A DNA stretch of 64,000 nt from an uncultured Candidatus Nitrosopumilus sp. GTDB taxonomy: Archaea; Thermoproteota; Nitrososphaeria; Nitrososphaerales; Nitrosopumilaceae. Where the stretch lies: assembly GCA_951812645.1 (NCBI GenBank), contig CATOSM010000001.1, forward strand, positions 599,560-663,559, given 5' to 3'. This document shows, in pieces, positions 19,478 through 59,161 of this stretch. The number at the start of each line of letters is the position of its first letter. Positions within the stretch are counted from its first letter, which is position 1. The position numbers were made by a program, and so were the translations under genes. The notes below the pieces were generated by a model that had not been told where the DNA came from, did not search any database, and saw only the letters and a program-made list of their open reading frames with translations.

Positions 19478-20152
19478 ATGTCAGAAAATAATGAGCGATA
19501 TTACTTTAATTTCGCATTTTTCAAGGTTGACCCAAAATGGAGATGGATGGCAGACTTGGCAAAGGAAGAATCTGCAAAAGAAGTTGAAAATGTAATTAAT
19601 AATTCAGGAATTAAATATAGAACATATTCAAATTTAGGATTACGTGACGACACAGACTTTTTGTTTTGGTTTGCAGCAAAGACAGTTGAGGAAATTCAAA
19701 AAGTGATGGAGAAAATATACAAAACAGTATTTGGCAAATACATTATTCCTTCAATGACATACTTGTCATGCACACGGCCATCATTGTACGTACAAGAACA
19801 AAAAACCTTGGGATTCATGACAGGAAATGATCCAAAAAAACACGTTATAGTATATCCATTTACAAAAACAAGGGAATGGTATCTCTTACCAAAAGAGAAA
19901 CGTCAAGAGATAATGGATGAACATATAGAAGTCAGTAAAAAATACCCACAGATAGTTCTCAATACTACGTACTCTTTTGGAATACATGATGAAGACTTTA
20001 TGCTAGCTTTTGAAGTAGATGACATTAGGGATTTCCAAGACTTGATCATAGATTTAAGAGAAACTCAAGTCTCAACATATGTTAAAAACGACATTCCAAT
20101 GATTGTATGCGTCAAAAAGGATATTGTGCCACTAATATCGAGTTTAGGATAG
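19478..20152 (+). CDS. Chlorite-dismutase/HemQ-like haem protein
   Basis: 224 residues of the Cld superfamily (dimeric ferredoxin-like fold). YPFTKTREWYLLPKEKR, followed by DEHIEVSKKYP and YSFGIHDEDFMLAFEVDD, matches the HemQ branch, whose members decarboxylate coprohaem to haem b. True chlorite dismutation is less likely because the organism lacks that context. It is surrounded at a few kb by tetrapyrrole genes, including the sirohaem decarboxylase. AhbC and AhbD were not seen in the window. Its role as the terminal haem-forming enzyme is an inference. An aldo/keto reductase starts six bases later, probably in one transcript. Confidence 0.8.
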   Translation: MSENNERYYFNFAFFKVDPKWRWMADLAKEESAKEVENVINNSGIKYRTYSNLGLRDDTDFLFWFAAKTVEEIQKVMEKIYKTVFGKYIIPSMTYLSCTRPSLYVQEQKTLGFMTGNDPKKHVIVYPFTKTREWYLLPKEKRQEIMDEHIEVSKKYPQIVLNTTYSFGIHDEDFMLAFEVDDIRDFQDLIIDLRETQVSTYVKNDIPMIVCVKKDIVPLISSLG

Positions 20153-20158
20153 ATAAAG

Positions 20159-21157
20159 ATGAACTACAACAAGATAGGAAAAACAGACATCAAAGTATCA
20201 GAATTAGGATTTGGTGCATGGTCAATCGCACTTGATTGGTGGGGCAAAAAAATTGAAGAGGATGAGGCAAAAATAATGCTCAAAAAAGCATACGATTTGG
20301 GAATCAACTTTTTTGAAACAGGAGACATGTATGGAAAAGGAAAAAGTGAAAGACTCATCGGCGAAGTCTTCAAAGACATGAGAGATGAGGTAGTAATATC
20401 TACAAAATACGGTTATGATTTTTCAGGAGTAGAACAGATCGGACATAGCGAACTGCCTCAAAGATTTGACGAGGGTTTTACACGAAAAGCACTTAGGGCA
20501 AGTTTGGAAAGGTTGCAAACAGATCACTTAGACATGTATGGATTACACAACCCAAAATTAAACCACATAAGAGATGATTCAATCTTTAATGTTTTAGATA
20601 GTTTTGTTGCAGATGAATCAATCAGAACATACCAAGTAGCTTTAGGTCCTGCAATAGGATGGACTCGAGAAGGAATGGAGGCAATGGAAAGACCAAATGT
20701 CAGCGCAGTGCAAACAGTTTACAACATTTTAGAACAAACACCAGGAAATGAACTGATGAGAAAGGCAGAAGAAAAAGACGTAGGCATTCTTGTCAGAGTA
20801 CCAGAAGCGTCAGGAATTTTAACTGGGAAGGTCAACGCTGAAACCAAAATAGATGAAAAAGATCACAGATCAGTAAGGAAGGGAGAATGGATCAAGGCAT
20901 CATTGAAAAAAGTCGAACAGCTAAAATCAATTACAGAAAGAAACGAATTAACAATTACTGAATTATCAATGAAATTTATCATGTCAAAAAAAGGATTCGC
21001 ATCGGTATTTCCTACAGTGGTAAGTGAAGAAGAGATTATCAATTATGCAGAGATGACAAAAGGAGAATACATTCCAGCGTCAGATATGAAAGAAATCGAA
21101 GAATTGTACAACACATGGCCACCTTACGAATTAAAAGCAACTCCACAAGCAAGTTAA
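20159..21157 (+). CDS. Aldo/keto reductase
   Basis: 332 residues, NADPH-dependent TIM-barrel oxidoreductase. GFGAWSIALDWWG and INFFETGDMYGKGKSERLIGE (Asp and Tyr of the catalytic tetrad) lie near 15 and 50. STKYGYDF supplies the catalytic Lys, and DHLDMYGLHNP the His. The C-terminal part (FPTVVSEEEI) binds the nucleotide phosphate less canonically than typical AKRs. The substrate is unknown. It begins six bases after the Cld-like gene. Confidence 0.85.
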   Translation: MNYNKIGKTDIKVSELGFGAWSIALDWWGKKIEEDEAKIMLKKAYDLGINFFETGDMYGKGKSERLIGEVFKDMRDEVVISTKYGYDFSGVEQIGHSELPQRFDEGFTRKALRASLERLQTDHLDMYGLHNPKLNHIRDDSIFNVLDSFVADESIRTYQVALGPAIGWTREGMEAMERPNVSAVQTVYNILEQTPGNELMRKAEEKDVGILVRVPEASGILTGKVNAETKIDEKDHRSVRKGEWIKASLKKVEQLKSITERNELTITELSMKFIMSKKGFASVFPTVVSEEEIINYAEMTKGEYIPASDMKEIEELYNTWPPYELKATPQAS

Positions 21158-21164
21158 TTTGTAG

Positions 21165-21503
21165 ATGAATACCCCAATTGATTCAGAGAAAACTATCGAA
21201 ATTATTGAAAAAATGAAACTTGCCAACATTGGCAAATACAGAAAATGGGAATCTATGATAAAAAAAATCAAAAATAACCAAACATTAAACCCAGAAGAAT
21301 TAGAATATTATTCCAACATTACAAGAATTTACAAAAATTCAAGCATTACGTCTAGAAGCAAGATATTTCATACAAAATTATCAGAACTTGATGAAAAACC
21401 ACCATGCAAGGAATGTGGAAAAGATTCCCTGTTCTATTGCAACATGAATGACGAGTATTTTTGTACAATTCATGTCGTAGGACACGACGAAAATGAAATT
21501 TAA
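21165..21503 (+). CDS. Small hypothetical protein with C-terminal zinc-binding motif
   Basis: 112 residues. The first 80 are helical and charged; the last 35 contain CKECGKDSLFYCNMNDEYFC followed by IHVVGHDE, a CxxC-x8-C-x7-C/H arrangement resembling a B-box or small zinc ribbon. It probably binds zinc and nucleic acid or protein. It starts seven bases after the aldo/keto reductase and ends overlapping by four bases the convergent AhbAB gene. Confidence 0.65.
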   Translation: MNTPIDSEKTIEIIEKMKLANIGKYRKWESMIKKIKNNQTLNPEELEYYSNITRIYKNSSITSRSKIFHTKLSELDEKPPCKECGKDSLFYCNMNDEYFCTIHVVGHDENEI

Positions 21504-22549
21504 GACACAGGAATTGTTTCTTCCAAACTAAAAGAACTCTCTACAAAATATTCTACGCGGGTTTTCTTAAATTCTCTAGAACTAAAGAGAATTTTGAATT
21601 CGTCTACATTGATTTGATCTTGTATGGTTTTTGCCATTTCATTTGCTTCCTCATGGGTTTTACAATGAATCATTGAAAATACATTGTAAGGCCAATCGGC
21701 GTAAGTCGGCCTTTCATAGCAATGACTAACTTGTGGGAAAGAACCCAAGGTTTCACCAACTTTAGCAACCCTGTCTTCAGGTACCTTCCACACAATCATT
21801 CCATTTGCAGTAAATCCTACCTGTCTATGTCTTAAGATTGCGGCAAATCTTCGCATTACACCAATGCTCTCATAATGTCTCATTTTTGCAAACAATTCAT
21901 CTTCAGTGATTCCAAGATTCTTTGCGGCAAGAACAAAAGGCTCATCAATAATATCCATATCTTTTTGTAATTCTCGGACAAAGTCCTTGTCTTCTTCAGT
22001 AGGAACAAATTTCACATTTTTAATTTCTTTTTTCTCTTCAGTAGGGGCTACATCGTGTTTCTTACCATCAACCATGTCAAGTTTTACACCGATTTTGAAC
22101 AATTGCAAAGTAGGAAGCATTCTGACCTTTTTAATTCCCTTTAGAACATTGAATTTTTCCAATTCTTCCTTTAAATCAGAGCCAGGCGGTACTGCTAAAG
22201 TAAACCAAAGATTGAATTGGTGTTCTCGCTCATAATTATGACTGACACCGGGATGACGGTTGATTTGACTTGCAACATATTCCAGTTTATCATCTTCAAT
22301 TTCCATTGCTACAAGAGAGCTAGTGTATCCAAGTTGTCTGGTATCAAAAATAGCACCAAGTTGTCGTAAAACACCAATTTCTTTTAATTCACTTAACCTT
22401 GATTTGACCTCTTCAGGAGTAGTATCGAATTTTTTTGCAATAGCATCAAAAGGTCTAGTTACGAGCGGAAAAGTCCATTGAATTTCATTTAGAAGTTCTT
22501 TGTCAGATTCGTCCATTGAGGTCAATAAGTCAATAACTTGGCCATTCAA
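21500..22549 (-). CDS. ahbAB: Sirohaem decarboxylase, AhbA-AhbB fusion
   Basis: Converts sirohaem to didecarboxysirohaem in the alternative haem pathway. Two Lrp-like modules lie in tandem: residues 12-165 (winged helix DAIAKKFDTTPEEVKSRL, then GVSHNYEREHQFNLWFTL) and 185-340 (VLAAKNLGITEDELFAKM, then VSHCYERPTYADWPYNVF). In other organisms these are the separate subunits AhbA and AhbB, or NirDL/GH. Both halves keep the HNYER/HCYER motif. The open frame starts at a TTG (22549); ATG at 22516 (MDESDKELLNE) is an alternative. The regulator-like fold should not be mistaken for a transcription factor. Confidence 0.85.
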   Translation of the reverse strand: MNGQVIDLLTSMDESDKELLNEIQWTFPLVTRPFDAIAKKFDTTPEEVKSRLSELKEIGVLRQLGAIFDTRQLGYTSSLVAMEIEDDKLEYVASQINRHPGVSHNYEREHQFNLWFTLAVPPGSDLKEELEKFNVLKGIKKVRMLPTLQLFKIGVKLDMVDGKKHDVAPTEEKKEIKNVKFVPTEEDKDFVRELQKDMDIIDEPFVLAAKNLGITEDELFAKMRHYESIGVMRRFAAILRHRQVGFTANGMIVWKVPEDRVAKVGETLGSFPQVSHCYERPTYADWPYNVFSMIHCKTHEEANEMAKTIQDQINVDEFKILFSSREFKKTRVEYFVESSFSLEETIPVS

Positions 22550-22619
22550 TTAAAAATGTAGCTGGAATTTTGGGCTTTGATTTTTAATACATAAATAGAA
22601 ACCGAAGTCCCTTTGATCG

Positions 22620-23273
22620 ATGATAGTTGATTTTAACCTTCAAGGGAAAAAAATAATCATCATAGGAGGAGGAAATGAAGCACAGAAAAGAATCAATTCG
22701 ATAATCAAACAAGAATGCGACATTACAGTTCTTAGCGATAAGATTAATGCTCAAATCAACAAGCTTGTAAAAACAAAGAAGATAGAATTTGTAAAACAAA
22801 AAACCACAGATACGAAATTTATTTCAAAATTCAACCCAGACATGATAATAACGACCACCGATGACAAAAAAATAAATCAAAAAATCATTGCAGATGCAAA
22901 GAAAAAGAAAATTCTTGCTTATAGTTCGGATAATCCAGATGAAAGTGATTTTTCAAATCCGGCAATTATAGACTTTGAAAATATGATACAAATAGCAATT
23001 TTTACCGGTGGAAGAAGTCCTGCAATGTCTAAGAGAATTAAAAACAAATCAGAAAAAATTTTCAAAAAAATCATTTCAAAGGAAGATATTTCTCAAATCA
23101 AAATTCAGAAAATTTCAAGAAAAATAGCAAAAGAAGCCATAGATACACAAGCAGAACGAAAGAAATGTCTACGTGCTATCATGAGCGATAATGAGATTGA
23201 TCAGTTAATAAAAGACGGACAGGTGAAAAAAGCTGAAAGGCGAGCAATTACAATATTGAGCAATTGGAAATGA
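22620..23273 (+). CDS. Precorrin-2 dehydrogenase / sirohydrochlorin ferrochelatase-like
   Basis: 217 residues like the N-terminal half of CysG or Met8p. GKKIIIIGGGNEAQKRINSI is the NAD-binding Rossmann motif, and IITTTDDKKINQKI the second conserved segment; FTGGRSPAMSKRIK matches the family's catalytic/dimerisation region. It oxidises precorrin-2 to sirohydrochlorin and may insert iron. The methylase half is separate (cobA at 38.1 kb). A TATA-like CATAAATA lies 26 bases upstream. It overlaps hemA as ATGA. Confidence 0.85.
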   Translation: MIVDFNLQGKKIIIIGGGNEAQKRINSIIKQECDITVLSDKINAQINKLVKTKKIEFVKQKTTDTKFISKFNPDMIITTTDDKKINQKIIADAKKKKILAYSSDNPDESDFSNPAIIDFENMIQIAIFTGGRSPAMSKRIKNKSEKIFKKIISKEDISQIKIQKISRKIAKEAIDTQAERKKCLRAIMSDNEIDQLIKDGQVKKAERRAITILSNWK

Positions 23274-24535
23274 ATCAAAACATAATCAACGCACGTGTCA
23301 CTTTTCGTAACTCTCCAATACACATTCTAGAACAATTTACGATCAAAGACATGAAAAATGCATATGAACGATTCAAAAAAGATTCAGAGTTAGAAGAATG
23401 CGTAATTATTCAAACGTGTAACAGAATAGAGCTGTTTGGAAGGTCTAAAACACAGAGTTCAGAGAAAATCAAAAAAACATGGGCCACGATTACAGGATTG
23501 AAAGAAGAAACATTTGATGAAAATATAGAGTTTGTAGAGAATCATGATGCGTTACACCATTTGTTGAAATTAACATCGGGGCTGGATTCCATGGTACTGG
23601 GAGAAGAACAGATTCTCGGTCAGATAAAAGATTCAATTACATCTGCCAGAAAAGTCAAGGCATCAGGACGGCACCTCAATACATTATTTGACAAAGCAAT
23701 CAGAATTGGAACCAGGATTAGAAATTCAAGCGGAATTGGTGCAGGTGGAATTTCTATAGGATCCATGGCAGTCAAATTAGCAGAAGAAAATATCGATGAA
23801 CTAAAAACAAAAAAAGTTTTACTTATCGGAACAGGTGAAGTGTCAACGCTAGTTGCAAAGTCACTAGAGAGGCGGGGATATGCATTTGATGTCACAAGCA
23901 GAACAATGGGAAGATCAGAGACATTTTGTGAAACGATGGGAGGTAGTCCAATTAAATTTGAATCAGTACTCTCAGGCTTTGATAATTATGACGTAATCTT
24001 TGTTGCAACGACTGCACCGTATTTTCTAGTGACGGATGAGAGAATCACAGAAGCTATGAAAAATAAAGACAAGGGAATGATGATTTTAGACTTATCAAAC
24101 CCCAGAACGGTCGATGAAAAAGTAGCAACCATTGGAGGGGTCAAACTCATGAATTTGGATCAAATTGCAGAAATGGTAGAGAAGAACATGCATGCACGAT
24201 TAAACAAGGTGAAAACAGTTGAAAACATAATTAATGAGGAGGTCTCCGTATTAGAAGCCTCAATGAAAAGATTGGATGCGGAACCGCTTGTAAAAGACGT
24301 GTTCAAGAATATAGAAAACTTGAGAGAAAAGGAGTTACAAAAAGCACTTCAAATGCTAGATGAAAAAGATGAAAAGAAAATCAAGATTATTGATGAACTA
24401 ACCAAGGCAGTAGTAGAGAGTATTGTTGCAACCCCAATGAACAACATAAGAAAGGCTTCAGAGCAGGGCAAGCCAGATGTTGTAGAGCTTGCCAGTAAAT
24501 TATTTGACTATAAAAAACAGAACCAGGCCGACTAG
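23270..24535 (+). CDS. hemA: Glutamyl-tRNA reductase
   Basis: First enzyme of the C5 route to 5-aminolevulinate. IIQTCNRIELFGR holds the catalytic Cys near residue 47. LTSGLDSMVLGEEQILGQIK is a family signature, and VLLIGTGEVSTLVAKSL the NADPH-binding motif. The C-terminal helical dimerisation domain spans 300-420. Length 421 is normal. Although TTG 23264 is in frame, ATG 23270 overlaps the previous stop as ATGA and is the natural coupled start. The next enzyme, HemL, is encoded at 39.7-41.0 kb. Confidence 0.93.
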   Translation: MNQNIINARVTFRNSPIHILEQFTIKDMKNAYERFKKDSELEECVIIQTCNRIELFGRSKTQSSEKIKKTWATITGLKEETFDENIEFVENHDALHHLLKLTSGLDSMVLGEEQILGQIKDSITSARKVKASGRHLNTLFDKAIRIGTRIRNSSGIGAGGISIGSMAVKLAEENIDELKTKKVLLIGTGEVSTLVAKSLERRGYAFDVTSRTMGRSETFCETMGGSPIKFESVLSGFDNYDVIFVATTAPYFLVTDERITEAMKNKDKGMMILDLSNPRTVDEKVATIGGVKLMNLDQIAEMVEKNMHARLNKVKTVENIINEEVSVLEASMKRLDAEPLVKDVFKNIENLREKELQKALQMLDEKDEKKIKIIDELTKAVVESIVATPMNNIRKASEQGKPDVVELASKLFDYKKQNQAD

Positions 24536-24565: not shown

Positions 24566-25546
24566 ATGTCATTTCCAACTAGACGGCTTCGTAGACTGAG
24601 AACGACAGACAAAATGAGAGAACTGGTACAGGAAACTACCCTTTCACCAAAAGATTTCATTTGTCCGGTATTTGTTCAGGAGGACTTGAAGGAAAAAGTC
24701 AAAGTGGAATCAATGGCCGAAATTGAAAGATTGCCGTTAAATGATGTGAATGTGGAAGTTCAAAAAATTATAGATTTAGGAATTCCAGCAATCATGGTGT
24801 TTGGAATTCCATCAAAAAAAGATGAGGCCGGAAGTTCGGCATTTGATGATAACGGAATAGTTCAAAAAGCCATCAGACAGATCAGGGAGAAGTTTGGAGA
24901 GAAGATAGCAATCATGGCAGACGTATGCCTATGTCAATTCACATCTACAGGGCATTGCGGAATTGTTCAAGGGGATAAGATCGATAATGATACAAGCCTA
25001 GACACGTTATCAAAAATTGCAACTAGTCTGGCAAAAGCTGGAGTAGATACGGTCTCACCTTCAGCAATGATGGATGGCCAAGTATCCGCAATTAGAAAAG
25101 CGCTCGATACAGAGGGATTCACAGATGTTTCAATCATGTCACACTCTGCAAAGCATCGCTCAAACTTTTATTCTCCATTTAGAGATGCAGCAGGATGTGC
25201 TCCAAAATTTGGAGATAGGAAAACATACCAAGTTCCATTTACAAACGCAAGAGAAGCAATGATGGAAGTTCAGACAGACATTGAAGAAGGGGTAGACATT
25301 GTGATGATAAAACCGGCCTTGTCATATTTGGATTTGATTGCAGAAACCAGAAGAAAGTACAATGTTCCAGTATCAGCATATAGTGTTTCAGGCGAATATG
25401 CTTTGGTTAAAGCAGCATCACAGCTAGGATATGTTAATGAAAAAGACATCACACTGGAAATCTTACATTCAATTAAAAGAGCAGGGGCAGATATGATAGT
25501 CACATACTTTGCAAAATCAGCTTCAAGATTTCTTCAAGAATCATGA
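24566..25546 (+). CDS. hemB: Porphobilinogen synthase (5-aminolevulinate dehydratase)
   Basis: Condenses two aminolevulinates. RRLRRLRTTDKMRELVQET is the usual N-terminus. The metal loop DVCLCQFTSTGHCG keeps three cysteines (121, 123, 131), so this is the zinc-dependent class. Schiff-base lysines appear in HSAKHRSNFYSPFRDAAG (Lys 196) and MIKPALSYLDLI (Lys 249). Length 326 is normal. Its stop overlaps the start of the next small gene by four bases. Confidence 0.93.
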   Translation: MSFPTRRLRRLRTTDKMRELVQETTLSPKDFICPVFVQEDLKEKVKVESMAEIERLPLNDVNVEVQKIIDLGIPAIMVFGIPSKKDEAGSSAFDDNGIVQKAIRQIREKFGEKIAIMADVCLCQFTSTGHCGIVQGDKIDNDTSLDTLSKIATSLAKAGVDTVSPSAMMDGQVSAIRKALDTEGFTDVSIMSHSAKHRSNFYSPFRDAAGCAPKFGDRKTYQVPFTNAREAMMEVQTDIEEGVDIVMIKPALSYLDLIAETRRKYNVPVSAYSVSGEYALVKAASQLGYVNEKDITLEILHSIKRAGADMIVTYFAKSASRFLQES

Positions 25547-37266: not shown

Positions 37267-38064
37267 CTAGGCAGTCAGGGCATTCTTCATAGAGGCAAAG
37301 GCACCAGCAACGGTGTGAACTTCTGCGACAGTGTTTTTGACTTTGAATTTTTTTAATTCGTCAGATGTGAGCTGCCCAATGGAAACCACAGACAGTTTTG
37401 TGAGATGATCAAGTAGATCGCTGATTTCGTAATCCTTTGACATAATCTCAAAAAAACCCCGTACGGATGACGCACTAGTGAAAATAACACCGTCTACTTT
37501 ATGCTGAGAGAACAGTTCACGAAAGCCATTCCATTGAGTTGTATCCCTAAATGCACATACGTCATACAGATGAATCTCAACCACATTGATTCCAATCTTA
37601 TTTAGCAATTCTTTCAAAAAAGAATTCGAGGCGCCGCTACGAGGAATGATTACTTTTTTTCCGACTGCGCGGATTTGAGAGAACTCTTCGCCGACGCCGA
37701 CTGAGGAATTGTTTTCGGGCTCATAGTTTACTTTAATCCCACAGGTATTCAAAGTTGCAGTGGTTTTAGGACCAACGGACATTACCATGGTGTTTGCAAC
37801 TGCCAACTGTAATTTCTCAAAATTTCCGGTGTTTCTTGCAGTATCAAAGAGAACTTTTACAGCCTTTGAGCTGAGAAATACAGAATAATCAGGACTTTCA
37901 GATTCAACCAAACTCAGAAAATCATCGACGATTTTCTCACCCCTGCTTACAAGCTCTATTGTAGGTAAAGTAACGGGAGTTGCCTTGTGTTCTCGGGCAA
38001 GAGAAATGAATTCGGATGCATCGTCTTTGGAACGAGTAATGGCTATGGTTTTTCCATCAAGCAT
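37267..38064 (-). CDS. hemD: Uroporphyrinogen-III synthase
   Basis: Two-lobed, poorly conserved enzyme that closes the tetrapyrrole ring with inversion of ring D. TIAITRSKDDASEFISLARE at the start, FLSSKAVKVLF and VDGVIFTSASSVRGFFEIM in the middle match the family, and the length (265) fits. ATG 38064 overlaps the cobA stop as TAATG. A TTG at 38073 is in frame but less likely. It is the last gene of the hemL-hemC-cobA-hemD unit. Confidence 0.85.
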   Translation of the reverse strand: MLDGKTIAITRSKDDASEFISLAREHKATPVTLPTIELVSRGEKIVDDFLSLVESESPDYSVFLSSKAVKVLFDTARNTGNFEKLQLAVANTMVMSVGPKTTATLNTCGIKVNYEPENNSSVGVGEEFSQIRAVGKKVIIPRSGASNSFLKELLNKIGINVVEIHLYDVCAFRDTTQWNGFRELFSQHKVDGVIFTSASSVRGFFEIMSKDYEISDLLDHLTKLSVVSIGQLTSDELKKFKVKNTVAEVHTVAGAFASMKNALTA

Positions 38065-38804
38065 TATTTCCAACCCACGGTATCGGATAAATCAACGACG
38101 TTTCCAATTATGATGTTTGTAGGGGGGACTATTTTATTTTCTTTAACTTTTTTAGCAATATCAGTCACATTTCCTTTGATCATTTTTTGCTTAGGCGTAG
38201 TACCGTTTTGAATCACGGCTACAGGAGTCTTCTTATCCATACCCCCGGCAACGAGCTGCTTACAGATAACGTCAATTCTGGAGAGACCCATCATGATTAC
38301 GATGGTATCAACTGATTTTGCAAGGTTTTTCCATCTGACAGCTTCCTTTTTCTTTTCAGGATCTTCATGACCTGTAACAAAGGCTACTGATGATGCATGT
38401 CTTCTGTGAGTCAGTGGAATTCCAGCATATGTTGCAGAGCCAATTCCAGAAGTGATTCCCGGTACAATTTCATATTTTACTTTATTTTCTTTTAGAAACT
38501 CTGCCTCCTCTCCACCACGTCCAAAGATGATCGGATCACCGCCCTTTAGCCGTACCACGTTTTTTTTAGATTTTGCATACCGTACCATCAAATCATTCGT
38601 AGTGTTTTGATGTGCAGTATCATCGCCCACTGCACGGCCGACATAGACTTTTTCGGCCTTTTCAGGGATCATGGAAATTATTTTTTTGCTTACCAGCCTG
38701 TCATACAAGACAACATCGGCCTTTTCTAATAATTCAACTGCACGTAATGTGATTAGCCTGCTGTCTCCAGGGCCTGCACCGACAAGATACACTTTTCCGG
38801 TCAT
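38064..38804 (-). CDS. cobA: Uroporphyrinogen-III C-methyltransferase
   Basis: SAM-dependent methylation at C2 and C7, giving precorrin-2. VYLVGAGPGDSRLITLRAVE is the SAM-binding N-terminus, VVRLKGGDPIIFGRGGEEAE the conserved GGDP loop, and YEIVPGITSGIGSATYAGIPLT follows. Length 246 is typical of the stand-alone enzyme. Its product goes to the dehydrogenase at 22.6 kb. It overlaps hemC as ATGA. Confidence 0.93.
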   Translation of the reverse strand: MTGKVYLVGAGPGDSRLITLRAVELLEKADVVLYDRLVSKKIISMIPEKAEKVYVGRAVGDDTAHQNTTNDLMVRYAKSKKNVVRLKGGDPIIFGRGGEEAEFLKENKVKYEIVPGITSGIGSATYAGIPLTHRRHASSVAFVTGHEDPEKKKEAVRWKNLAKSVDTIVIMMGLSRIDVICKQLVAGGMDKKTPVAVIQNGTTPKQKMIKGNVTDIAKKVKENKIVPPTNIIIGNVVDLSDTVGWK

Positions 38805-39736
38805 GTCTTATTCCATTCCCCTACTTTTTCCCTCCAATTTAATGCAAGATCATTTACTCCTTTAGCACGTAGCTCCTCCCCAACACTTTTGCCCAAGGAT
38901 TTAGGATCCTCTTTTGTCCCACACCTACTTACCTGAAGAGATTGCTTTCCATCGACAGAGAAAGCAAAGACAGTCAAAGTCATCTCCGAGCCGTCGGACT
39001 TGGCATATGCGCCTAAGGGAAATCGACATCCAGAATCAAGATAGTCAGACAGGGAGCGTTCAGCCTCAATTTCCAGTCGGGAATCAGCATCTTCGATTCT
39101 CTTTAGCATTGAAATGGTTTTAGAGTCATCAGCTCTGGCAACGATTGCAATGGCACCCTGACCGGGAGAGGGTGAGAAATCATCTACGGATAATGGGGTG
39201 TACTTTACATCAGATCCCAATCTGGAGATGCCAGCTTGTGCAAGAACTATTGCGTCATAGTTATCACCAGATGCTTTTCGGATACGGGTTTCAATGTTGC
39301 CCCGTATTGGTTTTACAGCAACGTCAGGTCTTTTTCTTGATACCTGTACTGCTCTGCGTAAAGAACTGGTGCCAATTACAGAGCCAGCTTTGATGTCATC
39401 CAATGTAGAACCGTCTGAAGAGATGAATACGTCATTTACTGCCTCTCGCTTTGGAACAGATGCGATGATCAAGTTTTCGTCCAATTCGGATGGGACATCC
39501 TTGAGACTGTGTACCGCAAAATCCACTTCCTTTCGGGCAACTGCCCTATCAATTTCTTTTTCAAAAATTCCTTTTTGATCTATCGTAAATAATGGCCGTG
39601 TATCAATGTCACCCTTTGTGGTGATTGGTTTGATTTCATAATCACAGTCAGGATTTACTTTTTTTAATTCGGATATCACCCAACTGGTTTGTGCCACAGA
39701 TAGTCGGCTGCCTCTAGCGCCTACAACATGCTTCAA
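38801..39736 (-). CDS. hemC: Hydroxymethylbilane synthase
   Basis: Porphobilinogen deaminase. GARGSRLSVAQTSWVI, ALSLKDVPSE-like HSLKDVPSELDE, GTSSLRRAVQ and RGNIETRIRK bind substrate, and DSGCRFPLGAYA holds the dipyrromethane-cofactor Cys near 236. 311 residues, normal length. Overlaps both neighbours by four bases. Confidence 0.93.
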   Translation of the reverse strand: MKHVVGARGSRLSVAQTSWVISELKKVNPDCDYEIKPITTKGDIDTRPLFTIDQKGIFEKEIDRAVARKEVDFAVHSLKDVPSELDENLIIASVPKREAVNDVFISSDGSTLDDIKAGSVIGTSSLRRAVQVSRKRPDVAVKPIRGNIETRIRKASGDNYDAIVLAQAGISRLGSDVKYTPLSVDDFSPSPGQGAIAIVARADDSKTISMLKRIEDADSRLEIEAERSLSDYLDSGCRFPLGAYAKSDGSEMTLTVFAFSVDGKQSLQVSRCGTKEDPKSLGKSVGEELRAKGVNDLALNWREKVGEWNKT

Positions 39737-41010
39737 TTTTTCACCGATTTTAATGCCAAATGGTAGGCATCAAGTGTTTTGTTTAGATCAGATTGTGTAT
39801 GAGCGTCAGAAAGAAAAACCACCTCAAATTGGGAGGGTGCAATGAAAATTTTGTTCTTCAGCAAAGTTCGAAACAGTTTTTGAAATTTCTCTGCATTTGC
39901 ATTTTTAGATGTTTGATAGTCCACCACGGGCTTGTCGGTAAAGAAAATTTGGAGCATTGAGGCCGTAGAATTGACTTGGTGGGGTATTTTCATGTCTGCT
40001 GCCACATCATCCAAGGCAGTGGAGAACAAAAGGTTGAATCTTTCAAGTTTGGAGTAGAGTTTGTTTTTGATTTTGTCAATTGTCTTAATTGAACTGATTG
40101 CGGCGCTAACAGAGATCGGATTTCCAGCAAATGTACTTGCCTGGTAAACTCTGCCTCCGGGAGAAAGTAAATCCATAATCTCTTTTTTGCCACCAACCGC
40201 AGATATGGTAAAGCCGCTACCGAGAGCTTTGGCCACTGTGGTGATGTCAGGTTCTATTCCAAAATGTTCTTGGGCCCCACCGGGTGCAACTCTGAAACCG
40301 GTTACAACCTCATCAAAGATTAACGGAATGTCGTTTTCCTTAGTTATTTTTCTCAAATCGGAAAGAAAGCCCTTTTCAGGCAAGATCAATCCCATGTTTG
40401 CAGGGATAGGCTCTACGATAACCCCTGCAATGTCTTTGTTTTTTCGGATTGTTTTTTGTAAATCCTCCATATCGTTATACCCTACAACCAGCGTGTTTTT
40501 TGAAACCTCGTCTAAACCGCCATCGGACACGGATATGCCATTATGTGCAGAACCGGAACCTGCTTTTACCAGAACAGAGTCATGCGCGCCATGATAACAG
40601 CCTTCAAATTTTATTATTTTTTTCTTTTTTGTAAATCCACGAGCTAGTCTAATGGCAGTCATTGTGGCCTCGCCGCCCGTATTCATTAATCGAACTTTTT
40701 CAACAGATGGAAAATTTCCAATGATTAATTTTGAGAGTTCGGTTTCAGATTCAGTAGGGGTACAGTAAAGAGTTCCTTTTGAGAGCTGTTTTGATACAGA
40801 AGATATGATTTCTTTTCGCCGATGCCCTAAAAGCAAGGCGCCATAACCATTGCAAAAATCAATGTATCGGGTATTGCCTGCATCCCAAATGTATGCACCG
40901 TTTGCTTTTTTTGTAAAGAAAGGATAGGGCTCAAAATATCTAACAGGGCTGTTAACGCCTGAAGGAATCATTTTTTTTGCAGTATTGAACAATTTCCTGG
41001 ATTCGGACAT
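39733..41010 (-). CDS. hemL: Glutamate-1-semialdehyde 2,1-aminomutase
   Basis: PLP enzyme forming 5-aminolevulinate from the HemA product. Landmarks: IPSGVNSPVRYFEPYPFF at the start, RLMNTGGEATMTAIRLARG, FEGCYHGAHDSVLVKAGSG, PLIFDEVVTGFR, and the PLP lysine in TVAKALGSGFTISAVGG. 425 residues. First gene of the four-gene hem operon; a weak AATAATAA lies about 26 bases upstream of the ATG. It flanks the decayed integrase region on its other side. Confidence 0.93.
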   Translation of the reverse strand: MSESRKLFNTAKKMIPSGVNSPVRYFEPYPFFTKKANGAYIWDAGNTRYIDFCNGYGALLLGHRRKEIISSVSKQLSKGTLYCTPTESETELSKLIIGNFPSVEKVRLMNTGGEATMTAIRLARGFTKKKKIIKFEGCYHGAHDSVLVKAGSGSAHNGISVSDGGLDEVSKNTLVVGYNDMEDLQKTIRKNKDIAGVIVEPIPANMGLILPEKGFLSDLRKITKENDIPLIFDEVVTGFRVAPGGAQEHFGIEPDITTVAKALGSGFTISAVGGKKEIMDLLSPGGRVYQASTFAGNPISVSAAISSIKTIDKIKNKLYSKLERFNLLFSTALDDVAADMKIPHQVNSTASMLQIFFTDKPVVDYQTSKNANAEKFQKLFRTLLKNKIFIAPSQFEVVFLSDAHTQSDLNKTLDAYHLALKSVKN

Positions 41011-42464: not shown

Positions 42465-43336
42465 AACTCATCCTAAAACCGATCATTTTGTAAATAATTC
42501 ATGACAATCGGGATCCAAGAATGACCCTGCTGACGTATCTTTCATGATTCACAAAGAAATGTCAGACATTCAATGGAACAGTTCTATCACATCTGCCAAA
42601 GCCTGCAAAAACTGGCAGGCCAGGATGCAATGACAGAAACACAATCAACGGAATTTTGTTTGTCCTAACAACAGGATGCAGGTGGGCAGACATGCCGGAC
42701 AGATACGGTTCAAAATCCACCGCACATCTGAGATTCTCAGAGCTGCAGCAAAAGGGAATATGGAAAAGGATTCTATCCAGTTCAATCAAATCTGCACACA
42801 GGCAGGGAAAAATCAGCCTGGAAAAAATTTTAGTTGATTCATCATCAGTTGCCGCCAAAAAAAGGGGGACAAAACAGGATATGACGGGTTCAGGAAGATC
42901 CTGGGCACAAAGATTCACGTTGCAGCAGACAGGACAGGACTGCCAATCCCAATCAGGGCCAGCCCTGCAAATGTCCATGACAGTACGAAATTCATTGGTG
43001 TGTCAGAAGACATCCCAGAACCTGCAGATGATGGTTTGATACGGCAGATCATCTCAGCGTATGCCGACAAGGGATACGATGCGGCATGCATCAGAAGATA
43101 TCTGAGATCCCATGGGATTGACCGTTGCATTCCATACAAAAGGAACTCGAGGAACGTTGCACAGAACAGGAATCAAAGACATCATGGCAAGACATGGTTT
43201 GTCGTAGAGCGGTTCCTTGCCTGGCTCAAGTGCGGGCTTCACGGGACGGCAGTCAGATACGAAGGGAACTGACAACCGTCTTGGATTTGTGCATCTGGCA
43301 TGCATCATGACGTATTGGAGGGTTTTAGGATAAGTT
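42465..43336 (+). mobile_element. IS5-family element, copy A (degenerate)
   Basis: 872 bases bounded by inverted repeats AACTCATCCTAAAACC and GGTTTTAGGATAAGTT. The transposase reads in pieces: GCRWADMPDRYGSKSTAHLR and VDSSSVAAKKRGTK (first ORF), then after an A7G5 run the second ORF with PEPADDGLIRQIISAYADKG and VVERFLAWLKCGLH. Several frame changes within the halves make it inactive. Closely related to copies D and E and fragment B. Confidence 0.82.
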
Positions 43337-46546: not shown

Positions 46547-48286
46547 CTAACTACAGTCTGCAATGTATGTTACAGTCTGCTTGATAGGTCCACTTGGTCC
46601 ATTACTGTTTCCCGTCATATCCACACGATAGTCAAGGGATAACTTGCTATTACCGTCACGTGGTTGAGGAAGATTGTCTGTAATCTCAACGGAGCTGCCG
46701 GGTTTTACAACATTCCAGCTGTTTTCTCCACTTGACTTTACCTCACTGTGTACGTCAGGTACTGTACTACCAGTATTGTCAGTCCAATCAGATACCCTTA
46801 CCTCTATTGCACTAAGTTCAGCAGATCCTGCATTTGTAACGCCTTGTGTTGCAATGCCCGATGTCTTGCCATACTGTGATGGAGGAAGATCAAGGCTTGA
46901 TTTGTCTAGGTCTATAGAGCACGTATTGTATGCACCAGTTTGTGTCTGCTTAGAACCGGAACGTTCAGCTATCTGTGTAAGGGATGCATCTATGTACCAA
47001 GGGCCAAAGATGACATTACCGTAGATGGGAGGATGAGTTGCATTTTGTACCAATGGTGATGCAGGGGAGCCGTAGTAGTTGAGAGGTGCAATCATTGTAC
47101 CGACTGCCATATTCATAAGGTAAAAGCCGTTTACGTTATCAAAAGTATTATGGGTAAACAGGTTTGTGTTGTCAGTCTTTGTTGCCTTATCAGTGGTAGC
47201 ATCAGCATAATAATAATCTCCTGAGGGTTGGTGACGTAGTCCACATACTCCTGTACAATAAACAATTCCGTTATTGCCGCCAGCGATGGTGTTGTTGTTC
47301 ACAACAACATTAGAGTTAGTCTCTCCCCATAACACAATAGCTCCTTCAGTAATAATTCCGTTATCAATATCTTCTTGAATTCCATTGACTAGTACGTTGT
47401 TTGCATTATGGATGTGATTGTCAAGAATACGTATCTGGTCAGTTGATTTAACTTTGATTGCAGGGCCAGGAACATTTGAGATTGTGTTGTTCAACACCAA
47501 AACACCTTCAGCATCACGCAAGTTTATTCCACCAAATGTCGTAGTATCAATGGTGTTGCCGGTAATTTTGGAATGATGTAGGCCGACTTGACTTGATTCA
47601 ACATTAACAAACGTCATTGCACTATACAATTTGGCCTCCTTTTGTTTATCACTTAAGGTAGGTTGATAAAATGTTCCAATGCCGTTAAACACATTATCTG
47701 TGACAGTCAAGTTTTGTGTTGGTGCTACATCTTTGACATAGATTCCGTCTCTTCCAGTATTATTAAATGTGTTTTTGTCTATTATTATATGAGAACTGCC
47801 ACCAGCGATTTCTATGCCAGCGTATATCGTATTGTTGATATAGTTGTTCTCAACAACAATATTGGATTTACTTGGATGGACAAATATTCCATGCGATCTC
47901 GCATCTACAATCTTGATTCCCTGAACCTTTACATTGTCTGCGTTTATCCGGATTCCGGTGCCGTTAAAAATTACGTCATCCTTGGCATGGTCGCCATTTG
48001 TAGACTTTAGGGTGATATGTTTGTTAAGTGTTATGTATTTAACCGGATCATCAAAATCAAGATATCTGCCATCAGCAACGACTATAACATCGCCTTGAGC
48101 TGCGGCTGTAAATGCCGCACTAGGATTCTTGAATGTCGTTCCGTCATTACATGTGCCATCATTATCGTCATCCTGACATGTTCCATTCACATTGACTGTA
48201 GCTGCATATGCGGAAGGAACTGTAATCAGTAGGGTTAGTGCCGCAATCATAAATATTGCATATTGTGAAGTCGTTAACTTTGTCAT
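46547..48286 (-). CDS. Secreted parallel beta-helix repeat protein, copy 1
   Basis: About 579 residues. The signal peptide ends at PSAYA. The central 400 residues show repeated beta-helix (PbH1/NosD-like) coils with Asn ladders (ITGNTIDTTTFGGINLRDAE, VVNNNTIAGGNNGIVYCTGV). The C-terminal 120 residues form a beta-sandwich-like domain ending YIADCS. The DCxDDDNDGTCND-like motif after the signal peptide may bind calcium. GTG 48295 is open, but ATG 48286 is 26 bases from a TATA box duplicated in the paralogue. It is a cell-surface carbohydrate-binding or structural protein by inference. Confidence 0.78.
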   Translation of the reverse strand: MTKLTTSQYAIFMIAALTLLITVPSAYAATVNVNGTCQDDDNDGTCNDGTTFKNPSAAFTAAAQGDVIVVADGRYLDFDDPVKYITLNKHITLKSTNGDHAKDDVIFNGTGIRINADNVKVQGIKIVDARSHGIFVHPSKSNIVVENNYINNTIYAGIEIAGGSSHIIIDKNTFNNTGRDGIYVKDVAPTQNLTVTDNVFNGIGTFYQPTLSDKQKEAKLYSAMTFVNVESSQVGLHHSKITGNTIDTTTFGGINLRDAEGVLVLNNTISNVPGPAIKVKSTDQIRILDNHIHNANNVLVNGIQEDIDNGIITEGAIVLWGETNSNVVVNNNTIAGGNNGIVYCTGVCGLRHQPSGDYYYADATTDKATKTDNTNLFTHNTFDNVNGFYLMNMAVGTMIAPLNYYGSPASPLVQNATHPPIYGNVIFGPWYIDASLTQIAERSGSKQTQTGAYNTCSIDLDKSSLDLPPSQYGKTSGIATQGVTNAGSAELSAIEVRVSDWTDNTGSTVPDVHSEVKSSGENSWNVVKPGSSVEITDNLPQPRDGNSKLSLDYRVDMTGNSNGPSGPIKQTVTYIADCS

Positions 48287-48307
48287 TGGTACCACCTGAA
48301 CATGGGT

Positions 48308-50069: not shown

Positions 50070-51764
50070 CTAACTACAGTCTGCAATGTATGTCACAGTC
50101 TGCTTGATAGGTCCACTTGGTCCATTACTGTTTCCCGTCATATCTACACGATAGTCAAGGGATAACTTGCTACTACCGTCACGTGGTTGAGGAAGATTCT
50201 CTGTAATCTCAACGGAGCTGCCGGGTTTTACAACATTCCAGCTGGTTGTTGCCCTTGGCTTTACCTCACTGTGTACGTCAGGTACTGTACTACCAGTATT
50301 GTCAGTCCAATCAGATACCCTTACCTCTATTGCACTAAGTTCAGCAGATCCTGCATTTGTAACGCCTTGCGTGTCAATGCCTGATGTCTTGCCATACTCT
50401 GAGAGAGGAAGATCAAGGCTTGATTTTTCTAGGGCTACAGAGCACGTATTGTATGCACTAATTTGTGTCTGCTGGGAGCCGGAACTTACAGCTATCTGTG
50501 TAAGGGATGCATCTGCATACCATGGTCCATAGACAACGTCTCCGCGAATGGTAGGGTCAGTTACATTTTGTACCAATGGTGATGCAGGAGAGCCGTAGTA
50601 GTTGAGCGGTGCAATCATAGGACCTGTTGCCCTATTGATAATATCAAAGCCCTTTACATTATCAAAAGTATTATGGGTAAATATGTTTGTCCTGCTATTA
50701 TCCCGTGTTGCATTAAGTTCATCCAAATTATTTCTGGCACCTGCCAAGTGATCCAGATTTGCTCCCTTACATATTCCGGCACAGTTAACAATTCCGTTGT
50801 TGCCGCCAGAGATGATGTTGTTGCTAAAAGTAATATTAGTCAAGCCACCTGCCGTCCAAAAGATAACAGATCCTCCCTTACGTTCATTTTCAGGGACTTC
50901 ATTATGCCCTACTGCAGAGTTTGCATTATGTATGTAATTGTCAAGAATCTGCATCTGGTTGCCGCCTAATCTGACTGTGATTGCAGAGGCAGGGACATTT
51001 GAGATTGTGTTGTCCTGCACCAAAATATTTTCAGCATTACCCAGGCCTATCCCGTAACCTGTCGTAGTATCAATGGTGTTGCCGGTAATTTTGGAATCTT
51101 TTATGCCCAAGGCCGAGCCTGCAATATTACCAACAAGGTGTATTGCAGTAAAGGCTTTTTCGGCCCTACTATCATGTGGTTTAGTAAATGTTCCAATGTT
51201 CTTAAACACATTATCCGTCACAGTCAGGTTTTTCATTGGAAAGTCGGTTTCCGGTTTTAGTTCGATTCTTATTCCGTGTCCGTTGGTATCCCTAAACGTG
51301 TTGTTGTGTATTGTTATATCAGACAAACCGTTGGCAATGTTAATTACAGGTGCTGGTTGAAAATCTGATGGTATAGCTTTTGAGGTATTTTTAAAGGTGA
51401 TACCTTTTATGGTCACATCATCGGAAGTTATTCTGATATTAACTGGTCCGCTAAAGGTCACCCTGTCGCTTGGAGATGCAGACTGGATTGTCAACGGTTT
51501 GCCAATTGTTATTTGATGAAGATCATTATCATATGTTCCATTTTTGATGGATATGGTATCACCTGATTCTGCTTTTCCAATTGCAGCCGAAAGCCAGATA
51601 TATTTTTCATTATCAGGAGCCTTACATGTGCCGTTTTTCTCATTCTTGTTGAGACATGATGCATCCAGGACAAGCGTGTTTGCATATGCGGAAGGAACTG
51701 TAATCAGTATGGTCAGTGCCGCAATCATAAATATTGCATATTGTGAAGTCGTTAATTTTGTCAT
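50070..51764 (-). CDS. Secreted parallel beta-helix repeat protein, copy 2
   Basis: About 564 residues, paralogue of the protein at 46.5 kb. The signal peptide, the C-terminal 125 residues (VTNAGSAELSAIEVRVSDWT etc.) and the promoter are nearly identical. The middle, with Asn-ladder coils such as ITGNTIDTTTGYGIGLGNAE, differs more. The N-terminal cysteine motif reads SCLNKNEKNGTCKAPD instead of the Asp-rich form of copy 1. The start ATG 51764 is chosen by TATA spacing; GTG 51773 is also open. Just downstream a few bases resemble the beginning of the 603-residue gene, cut off by IS material. Confidence 0.78.
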   Translation of the reverse strand: MTKLTTSQYAIFMIAALTILITVPSAYANTLVLDASCLNKNEKNGTCKAPDNEKYIWLSAAIGKAESGDTISIKNGTYDNDLHQITIGKPLTIQSASPSDRVTFSGPVNIRITSDDVTIKGITFKNTSKAIPSDFQPAPVINIANGLSDITIHNNTFRDTNGHGIRIELKPETDFPMKNLTVTDNVFKNIGTFTKPHDSRAEKAFTAIHLVGNIAGSALGIKDSKITGNTIDTTTGYGIGLGNAENILVQDNTISNVPASAITVRLGGNQMQILDNYIHNANSAVGHNEVPENERKGGSVIFWTAGGLTNITFSNNIISGGNNGIVNCAGICKGANLDHLAGARNNLDELNATRDNSRTNIFTHNTFDNVKGFDIINRATGPMIAPLNYYGSPASPLVQNVTDPTIRGDVVYGPWYADASLTQIAVSSGSQQTQISAYNTCSVALEKSSLDLPLSEYGKTSGIDTQGVTNAGSAELSAIEVRVSDWTDNTGSTVPDVHSEVKPRATTSWNVVKPGSSVEITENLPQPRDGSSKLSLDYRVDMTGNSNGPSGPIKQTVTYIADCS

Positions 51765-51785
51765 TGGTACCACGTGAACATTGGT

Positions 51786-56534: not shown

Positions 56535-56981
56535 TTATCTTAAAACCCTGCAATGCATCAAAAATGACGTAATGCTAACCAGCCCGGGATAATTTCCCGC
56601 GTTTCTTTCATGTCTTGTTATGTGAAATCCGTTTTTCAGCCAGGCAAAGAACCGTTCCGCTACAAACCTTGTCCTGTTGTAACTGTCCTTGCCTGCACCA
56701 TCATCTGCCGTCTTGCTGTTTTTTCTAAAAGGAATGCACGGAATGATGTCTCTTGATCTTACATAACTGCGGATTGGTTTTGAATCGTATCCCCTGTCTG
56801 CATAGACTGAAACCATTTGTTCCATCATGGAATCATCTGCAAAATCCGAAATTGATTCCATCACATCTGCAAATTTTGTACTGTCGTGAATGCTTGCAGA
56901 GATCATTACAATTGATATCGGCAAACAGGTACCACCTACTGCAACATGTAATTTCGTGGCTGAAATCCTCTTGAATTCGTC
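56535..56981 (-). CDS. IS copy F transposase, second ORF (reached by -1 frameshift)
   Basis: The C-terminal transposase half. The frame entered after the A6G4 run reads SIRYDEFKRISATKLHVAVG, then GGTCLPISIVMISASIHDST, VSVYADRGYDSKPIRSYVRS and RFVAERFFAWLKNGFH with the ERFFAWLK glutamate box. An independent ATG exists only at 56924. The position of the second catalytic Asp (VDG in copy E) is Gly here, so the enzyme may be inactive. The start given (56981) is an approximate frame entry, not a start codon. Confidence 0.65.
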   Translation of the reverse strand, partial: DEFKRISATKLHVAVGGTCLPISIVMISASIHDSTKFADVMESISDFADDSMMEQMVSVYADRGYDSKPIRSYVRSRDIIPCIPFRKNSKTADDGAGKDSYNRTRFVAERFFAWLKNGFHITRHERNAGNYPGLVSITSFLMHCRVLR

Positions 56982-56986
56982 ATATC

Positions 56987-57322
56987 TTATAGAATCACCC
57001 CTTTTTTGGAGGGAACTGACGATGAATCAACTGATGTTTTTTCCAGGCTAATCCTGCCCGATTTATGTGCGGATTTGATTGCACATCCCAAAATCTTTTT
57101 CCATATGCCAAACTCCTGCCGTTTTCTTAGCCTTGGATTGGCAGTTAAACCATCACCGCATGTTTTTGGCATCTCACCCCATCCGCATCCGGAAACCAGC
57201 AGGCAGATGATTCCATTTAAAACCATTCGGTCATTGCTTCTTGGACGTCCTGTAGCGGCAGGTTTTGGCAATAACGGTTCCATCATGTTCCGTTGTCTAT
57301 CTGTTATCTCGGTGAATTTCAT
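56987..57322 (-). CDS. IS copy F transposase, first ORF
   Basis: N-terminal half: MKFTEITDRQRNMMEPLLPK is the IS5-family start (the frame is open to 57367 but that part is unlikely). GRPRSNDRMVLNGIICLLVS is the helix-turn-helix region. It ends VDSSSVPSKKG with the first catalytic Asp, immediately before the slippery A6G4. The ribosome must slip back one base to add the second half. Confidence 0.72.
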   Translation of the reverse strand: MKFTEITDRQRNMMEPLLPKPAATGRPRSNDRMVLNGIICLLVSGCGWGEMPKTCGDGLTANPRLRKRQEFGIWKKILGCAIKSAHKSGRISLEKTSVDSSSVPSKKGVIL

Positions 57323-57420
57323 GTACAGTTTGGAAACTAACAGCTCATGGATCCAAATGATCCCCAAATATTGTCCAAAGGGTTAGTTTTAAGACGAGTT
57401 GAATATATGCCATTTCCGAC

Positions 57421-58562: not shown

Positions 58563-58862
58563 ATGAACGGGGTCAGCCTGCTAAAATCCATATGCGATGA
58601 AACGCGTTTTGAAATTCTGGAACTGTTGCAAAGGAACAAGGAATTGTGCGTTAATGATTTTGTAGAAAAGTTGGAAAGAGATCAACCGCTAGTGTCACAT
58701 CATCTAAAGACGTTAAAAAAATGCGGAATAGTCAAATCAAGGGATGAGGGTAAAAAAGCAATGTACGCAATCACGGGCAAACAGCTGTCAGAATTGATAT
58801 CAAACATTACAAAAGCAAGCAAGAAAATTCCGGTCTTGTGTTCAGACGGCAGCTGCTGTTAG
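58563..58862 (+). CDS. arsR: ArsR-family transcription regulator
   Basis: 99 residues. The winged helix-turn-helix lies at 8-80 (CDETRFEILELLQRNKELCV, QPLVSHHLKTLKKCGIVKSR). Cys at the ELCVNDF position and the C-terminal CSDGSCC cluster are candidate arsenite-sensing ligands. It is divergent from arsC, consistent with regulation of arsC-aquaporin. It overlaps the next convergent gene by four bases. Confidence 0.88.
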   Translation: MNGVSLLKSICDETRFEILELLQRNKELCVNDFVEKLERDQPLVSHHLKTLKKCGIVKSRDEGKKAMYAITGKQLSELISNITKASKKIPVLCSDGSCC

Positions 58863-59161
58863 AATTTTTCGGTTCTTACTACGCCAACATCACTGACATA
58901 CAGGACGATTGCAAAATCTGCAAACAGCGTTCTTGATATTTCCTCCACAACATCTTGCAGTTTTTCCTCACGCATTATCACCTCGACTTTGACATTTTTT
59001 TCATTTTTCAGTCCCTGTCCGCGAATACCACGTGCGCCGTTTCCGTCAACCTCATAGGCGGTATATCCGGTAATCCCATGCTTGCTTAGAATTTCAACGA
59101 TATTTTTTTGTGCAAGGATTTCACAGGTGACTGTTAGCAATTTTACGTTATAGAGTTTCAT
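58859..59161 (-). CDS. PII-like signalling protein (SbtB type)
   Basis: 100 residues with the ferredoxin-like PII fold. KLYNVKLLTVTCEILAQKNI begins it, then a short T-loop region around YEVDGNGARGIRGQ, and DFAIVLYVSDVGVVRTEKF at the end. It has the reduced T-loop of SbtB and not the uridylylation site of GlnB, and lacks the C-terminal CGPxGC of cyanobacterial SbtB. Overlap with sbtA by four bases makes it the likely regulator of that transporter, perhaps binding adenine nucleotides. Confidence 0.8.
   Translation of the reverse strand: MKLYNVKLLTVTCEILAQKNIVEILSKHGITGYTAYEVDGNGARGIRGQGLKNEKNVKVEVIMREEKLQDVVEEISRTLFADFAIVLYVSDVGVVRTEKF

Follow-up and report, generated by a model that had tools for sequence, protein, structure and literature searches.

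How the ammonia-oxidizing archaea (AOA), which are counted among the most abundant organisms on Earth (PMC10432482), complete the synthesis of haem is the question raised by a locus at positions 19478 to 24535 of a window of 64,000 nucleotides. The window, by which we mean the whole stretch of DNA analysed, comes from an uncultured Candidatus Nitrosopumilus sp. (assembly GCA_951812645.1, contig CATOSM010000001.1, positions 599,560 to 663,559), and at this locus it encodes a fused AhbA-AhbB sirohaem decarboxylase (AhbAB) near a protein of the chlorite dismutase (Cld) family. Two published puzzles meet here, namely the gap at ahb-nirJ1/J2 in AOA genomes (PMC4010524) and the function of the AOA chlorite dismutase-like protein (PMC10432482). 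We propose, with a probability of about 0.72, that these archaea use the sirohaem-dependent route to haem in an aerobic variant, in which AhbAB is followed by an enzyme other than AhbC for the removal of acetates and by a coprohaem decarboxylase (ChdC, or HemQ) as the ending.

The sequence-only reading of the window had placed both sirohaem decarboxylase modules in one protein, and this holds. The 349 amino acid chain (21500..22549, minus strand; the listed TTG start is provisional) passes the NCBIfam equivalog cut-offs of both subunit models, with 274.6 against 140 bits for AhbA (NF040708) and 260.2 against 125 bits for AhbB (NF040707), and its residues 16-338 align at 253.9 bits with the solved fused protein 4ch7, of which two mutually similar stretches are retained in the AOA AhbAB rows displayed. 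The fusion itself is ordinary and already published: section 3.6 of Storbeck et al. 2010 (PMC3004389) gives it for almost all archaea that are not methanogens, and the pertinent part of a 2024 survey (PMC11237513) reports fused AhbAB in 14 TACK lineages and most Euryarchaeota. The same reading had also noted a Cld-family protein with HemQ-type motifs two genes away, which is borne out by a PF06778 match of 201 bits, by the residues described below and by the two genes that do intervene.

We read this Cld-family protein (19478..20152, plus strand) as a ChdC, a reading inferred from its residues and from the gene clusters of its relatives. Its best named matches are in Nitrosopumilus genomes, the first four rows having 91-93% identity, its closest NCBIfam model is HemQ_actino and its best solved sequence relatives are the ChdCs of Streptomyces and Corynebacterium. 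Y126 aligns with the catalytic Tyr of the Corynebacterium enzyme, which we take to be numbered Y135 there, and the list of solved relatives names a Y135A mutant. Residues were counted in 91 AOA rows and 8 rows from other archaea, after exclusion of matches with a query coverage below 60%. The distal-pocket Tyr of ChdC, Y126, is Tyr in 90 of the 91 AOA rows and X in the other, while the proximal haem His, H149, as well as K130 and W134, are present in all 91; the four residues also agree in 8 out of 8 of the remaining archaeal rows. When the predicted fold was compared with solved structures, the top match was a Streptomyces ChdC variant (Z 17.5, root-mean-square deviation 3.4 over 196 residues).

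The relatives of this protein outside the AOA are found in a telling genomic context. Families are given here by our own labels; f1, f2 and f3 are taken, from kinship and gene content, as the AOA families Nitrosopumilaceae, Nitrosocaldaceae and Nitrososphaeraceae, and f18, on the same grounds, as Sulfolobaceae. The term AOA clade covers f1, f2, f3 and f50, the last added since the cluster is common to it (locus L132). Our sample of the order held 121 genomes, 81 of those listed belonging to the AOA clade. Cld occurs in 99 of the 121, including 19 from outside the clade (f54, f55 and f59), and all 19 have a uroporphyrinogen decarboxylase (URO-D, HemE) over cut-off. In L128 (f55) and L131 (f59), hemB and hemL flank Cld in a gene row that also includes hemA and hemC, and hemE and ferrochelatase come next; in L112 (f14, a further family of the phylum), the order is hemC, hemD, hemB, hemA, cld, hemL and hemE. 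These are the gene sets of the coproporphyrin-dependent route, in which the Cld-family protein is ChdC. Since HemE-bearing relatives thus keep Cld inside hem clusters, they support a ChdC reading of the AOA protein.

Neither AhbC nor AhbD was found in the whole source genome (2.2 Mb in 7 contigs, 99.64% complete, contamination estimate 8.79%). The AhbD and AhbC models gave at best 38.5 and 30.2 bits, both to one and the same protein, the tetraether lipid synthase Tes (689.5 bits against a cut-off of 450). A search for radical S-adenosylmethionine (SAM) proteins returned 16 matches, or 15 distinct proteins, one sequence being present on two contigs, and an NCBIfam scan identified none as AhbC or AhbD. 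They comprise CofH, BioB, an MqnC-type protein, Tes, MtaB/MiaB-like-B, ELP3, RlmN, CofG and TYW1, together with proteins below NCBIfam cut-off (MqnE-like, QueE-like, two B12-type and one KamA-like) and the unassigned protein present twice. We considered whether an AhbC or AhbD could hide among the 15 and rejected this, given that their NCBIfam identities lie elsewhere and that the weak matches of Tes are the sole ones to the AhbC and AhbD models. As a separate observation, the 293 amino acid radical-SAM protein that is identical on two contigs (C1:1012573 and C5:5317; loci L010 and L011) would fit a contamination estimate that is partly redundancy.

The same gap extends across the AOA families. 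Our sample of the phylum held 250 genomes, among them 49 of f1-f3 and 14 of f18, with 14 further genomes as separate controls. AhbA over cut-off and Cld are each present in 49/49 genomes of f1-f3, in none of which the AhbC model found anything better than E 2.4e-17 and in three of which it had no match whatsoever. Because the 650-bit cut-off of that model is passed by 0/250 phylum genomes and 1/14 controls, the absence rests on the score gap and not on the cut-off. An AhbC in one genome (G058) scores 583 bits, and the adjoining gene, presumably AhbD, reaches 187 bits on the same model, so that AhbD-grade proteins should surface with it too; other radical-SAM families may reach about 200 bits on it, which could inflate presence but not absence. 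In f18, Cld was found in all 14 genomes and a frame of 322-339 amino acids matched the AhbA model in each (88-105 bits, below cut-off), while an AhbC-model match of 230-315 bits was seen in 11 and no strong one in the other three (G059, G071 and G210). Storbeck et al. 2010 (PMC3004389), in the parts cited here, describes the Nitrosopumilus maritimus protein NMAR_0512 as fused with nirJ1/J2 absent, gives the same gap for Sulfolobus acidocaldarius and Haloquadratum walsbyi (for the latter it is our only source), and doubts haem synthesis in all three. A 2014 AOA genome paper (PMC4010524) likewise states, in the section concerned, that ahb-nirJ1/J2 are missing from AOA and that the haem synthesis genes need further work.

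Taken together, these observations suggest the following route. The enzymes as far as sirohydrochlorin are encoded in the window, judging by family matches. The fused AhbA-AhbB would, by its family membership, convert sirohaem into 12,18-didecarboxysirohaem, after which the two acetates of rings A and B would be removed by an enzyme not recognisable as AhbC, yielding coprohaem. ChdC would then turn coprohaem into haem b, two propionates becoming vinyls through a tyrosyl radical at Y126, as the residues and the gene clusters of relatives suggest; the oxidant would be H2O2, which ChdC is stated to use in reviews cited for this point (PMC10548856, PMC7242693). The replacement of AhbD by ChdC is plausible and is supported by the residues, by the clusters of relatives and by a genome-wide search that found no AhbD. 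The sequence-only reading had claimed a complete route to sirohaem in the window; the steps that our search covered are complete as far as sirohydrochlorin. It had seen neither AhbC nor AhbD in the window and proposed a genome-wide search, which has now returned neither, all 16 radical-SAM matches being disqualified. Its idea of a hybrid ending through the Cld-like protein gains support as regards ChdC in place of AhbD but leaves the source of coprohaem missing, as AhbC was not found either; although it named the absence of AhbC, it overlooked the gap that the hybrid leaves at that step, as well as the reductase gene beside cld.

This gene encodes an aldo/keto reductase (20159..21157, plus strand; PF00248, 165 bits) that starts 6 nt past cld and has what we take to be the catalytic tetrad in E53 (at the Asp position), Y58, K83 and H130. 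In 80 of the 81 listed AOA-clade genomes, cld is followed on its own strand by the aldo/keto reductase, with 43-2528 bases between the matches (this count omits one row, a second Cld fragment of 43 bits in G285); in the 81st, G278, the reductase is at the start of a contig and Cld is missing. Two of the 121 genomes, both without Cld and of unstated family, could be exceptions to the linkage. Among the 19 Cld-bearing sister genomes, 18 gave no aldo/keto reductase match at E<=1e-60, and G259 (f59), the one other genome with both genes, has a 37%-identical relative on a different contig from Cld. In a second, overlapping sample, the reductase follows cld in all 78 AOA loci that extend at least 1.1 kb beyond it (72 of them from named genomes), and the pair is intact where AhbAB sits elsewhere (L106, L109, L110 and L134). 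A quick tree of 37 rows places the AOA reductases in a single supported group, and the column that we presume to be the catalytic Asp site holds Glu in 81/84 AOA rows and Asp in 18/20 others. The linkage is strong; since the AOA are one clade, one event may account for the pattern of presence.

The reductase probably belongs to the same process as Cld, and we regard it as a lead to the enzyme of the AhbC step and not as proof. We did not adopt it as a plain substitute for AhbC. On going from didecarboxysirohaem to coprohaem, two acetic acids are lost, and by the arithmetic of the formulae the step is redox-neutral, so that the AhbC reaction needs no NADPH, nor any net reductant. Moreover, relatives at E<=1e-30 occur in 14/14 f18 genomes, with or without a strong AhbC-model match, and G059 and G210, which have no such match, keep the reductase away from haem genes. 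A different aldo/keto reductase stands between precorrin-2 dehydrogenase/HemD and AhbAB in G101 and G247, probably Aeropyrum, where AhbC-model matches are strong (236-237 bits), and one adjoins hemA in G010; in the tree, these three group apart from the AOA clade. We also observed another group of such reductases within haem clusters, by AhbAB or hemA, in two f12 genera (L137, 5878-10469; L138; L151). The f12 loci are a second link of this type of enzyme to tetrapyrrole genes.

Several points weigh against the proposed route. No enzyme was found for the AhbC step, from didecarboxysirohaem to coprohaem, and the route is for that reason not closed; the AhbC and AhbD models have strict curated cut-offs, as the counts above show for AhbC. 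The ChdC activity of the Cld-family protein is a prediction from its residues and from gene clusters. It scores 149.3 bits on HemQ_actino against a cut-off of 235, which bars it from that subfamily but not from a ChdC-like function, the model being actinobacterial by its name. The distal His of the Corynebacterium ChdC is not kept, Lys or Gln standing at that position. The fold model is middling, with a predicted local distance difference test score (pLDDT) of 63.6, and the best chlorite dismutase match (Z 16.6) comes too near that of ChdC to decide, the Foldseek and VIA matches separating the two little.

This closeness of folds is one reason to ask whether the protein could be a chlorite dismutase, or another haem enzyme that forms O2 or detoxifies, and so lie outside haem synthesis. 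It is so named in AOA papers: a 2018 genome paper tabulates one in each of 7 AOA genomes (PMC5817080), and a 2023 review brings it up in discussing O2 production and gives its function in AOA as unknown (PMC10432482). However, chlorite dismutases are described as having Ile at the position of the ChdC Tyr and as requiring a distal Arg (in the relevant section of review PMC7611857), and the protein studied here has Tyr. A plasmid search returned 33 records with hemQ-type and family-level names, none of them named a true chlorite dismutase, so that the place of the distal Arg is an assumption; we take it to lie about 13 residues past the proximal His, at positions 161-163, where the AOA have L, N or T and Arg in just one of the 91 rows. 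With the hem gene clusters of the relatives added, we consider this explanation improbable. A hidden HemE route feeding ChdC, as in Gram-positive bacteria, might be suggested by the presence of that cluster in sister families of the same order, but it is barely credible: the source genome, in which ferrochelatase was not searched for, has no URO-D candidate, none of the 80 genomes with linked cld and reductase has URO-D over cut-off (G269 has an 18-bit match below it), and AhbAB would be left without a role.

A doubtful but more serious alternative is that a radical-SAM enzyme of another family does the work of AhbC, and perhaps of AhbD, with the reductase incidental. The 293 amino acid protein mentioned above has no family over cut-off and matches HpnJ (47.5 bits), HemW (30.7 bits) and BchE (20.2 bits) weakly, and the two B12-type proteins likewise have weak matches alone. 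In Pfam, however, the former is a bare radical-SAM domain, whereas AhbD is described as having two auxiliary clusters (title of PMC10452713). There is, finally, a slim chance that no haem is made and that the role of AhbAB and Cld concerns a cofactor derived from sirohaem, or a regulator. AhbAB belongs to the Lrp/AsnC fold family, and Storbeck et al. 2010 (PMC3004389) found nothing in N. maritimus that pointed to haem proteins and held haem synthesis there questionable. Against this, a cytochrome b/b6 protein is reported from AOA genomes in the 2014 paper, where cytochrome b is the only haem protein gene found and haem uptake is judged implausible (PMC4010524, section concerned), and S. acidocaldarius, with the same gap, is haem-positive in Table 1 of Storbeck et al. 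2010.

The haem synthesis genes of the window, with their neighbours, fall into two groups. From 18557, the order is SufC, Cld, the aldo/keto reductase, a 112 amino acid protein (21165..21503, plus strand), AhbAB on the opposite strand, a precorrin-2 dehydrogenase of the CysG N-terminal/Met8 type (22620..23273, plus; TIGR01470, 87.5 against 62.3 bits), glutamyl-tRNA reductase HemA (23264..24535, plus; TIGR01035, 339 bits, over cut-off) and porphobilinogen synthase HemB (24566..25546, plus; NF006762, 452.8 bits, over cut-off). The second group, farther along the window and on the minus strand, consists of uroporphyrinogen-III synthase HemD (37267..38073; PF02602, 153 bits), uroporphyrinogen-III C-methyltransferase SUMT (38064..38804; TIGR01469, 309.9 bits, over cut-off), hydroxymethylbilane synthase HemC (38801..39736; TIGR00212, 311.6 bits, over cut-off) and glutamate-1-semialdehyde aminomutase HemL (39733..41010; TIGR00713, 532.4 against 527.3 bits). 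The 112 amino acid protein has no Pfam or NCBIfam match; its BLAST relatives occur in most Nitrosopumilaceae loci and in none of the f2, f3 and f50 loci.

The interval between cld and the reductase is below 400 bases in 60 of the 78 AOA loci and wider in 18. Fifteen of the wide gaps hold a DUF1802 frame (4 by Pfam, the remainder by eye) and L095 a broken one; in L083 and L098 no DUF1802 was recognised, and in G282 and G303 the distance is greater than DUF1802 alone would give. In L095 (2029-2531), DUF1802 is split in two frames and is whole in other Nitrosarchaeum loci, which may reflect decay or a sequencing error. We rejected DUF1802 as an essential component, for it is absent from the source genome and from 19 listed genomes of its genus; its fold model is poor (pLDDT 55.6). 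Elsewhere in the window, two similar large proteins, whose starts are signal-like and whose bodies are rich in repeats, lie about 1.8 kb apart (46547-48295 and 50070-51773, both minus) and look by eye like a duplication. Transposase-like frames, each in two overlapping or neighbouring pieces (42656-43272 and 56535-57367, also by eye), are possible insertion sequence remnants. At 58859-60243 (minus), a membrane protein that to our eyes resembles SbtA bicarbonate transporters lies next to a PII-like protein, neither matching NCBIfam at 1e-10.

Each of three elements has already been published: the AhbAB fusion, the absence of nirJ1/J2 and an AOA 'chlorite dismutase' left unexplained. In the literature that we located, we found no paper that joins the three, interprets the AOA Cld as a ChdC or mentions the reductase. 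Part of this may already be stated in Dailey et al. 2017 or Dailey and Gerdes 2015; a metabolic model of N. maritimus cites the latter for gap filling, and ChdC may be assumed there (PMC6038301, as far as the cited part goes). If our proposal is true, the AOA Cld is the last enzyme of haem synthesis, which answers half of the question and reduces the remainder to one reaction, the removal of two acetates without AhbC, with few candidate genes. The case for the AOA Cld as a source of O2 would then be weakened. A wider but rather unlikely scenario is that strictly aerobic archaea replaced both oxygen-sensitive radical-SAM enzymes by an oxidant-driven ending, Sulfolobus and Haloquadratum having done so independently; the AOA module would be cld, DUF1802 and the aldo/keto reductase, and ChdC, alone or with the reductase, would both remove the acetates and make the vinyls.

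Compared with known systems, the proposed route shares with the Ahb route of Methanosarcina and Desulfovibrio the precorrin-2 and sirohydrochlorin enzymes, AhbA and AhbB, and differs from it in that AhbA and AhbB are fused, as is common in archaea, and that AhbC and AhbD were not found. Haloferax volcanii likewise combines Ahb genes with a ChdC, called PitA, which serves aerobic growth there: without PitA it is reported to grow very slowly in air, and haem restores growth (PMC5746218, in the part cited). AhbC and AhbD are both reported in that organism, whose ChdC has an additional ABM-like domain; here neither was found, and the ChdC is single-domain. In Gram-positive bacteria and the sister families with HemE, which follow the coproporphyrin-dependent route, HemE and ferrochelatase provide the coprohaem, whereas no HemE was found here and AhbAB points to sirohaem as the source; what the two would have in common is a Cld-family ChdC as the last enzyme.

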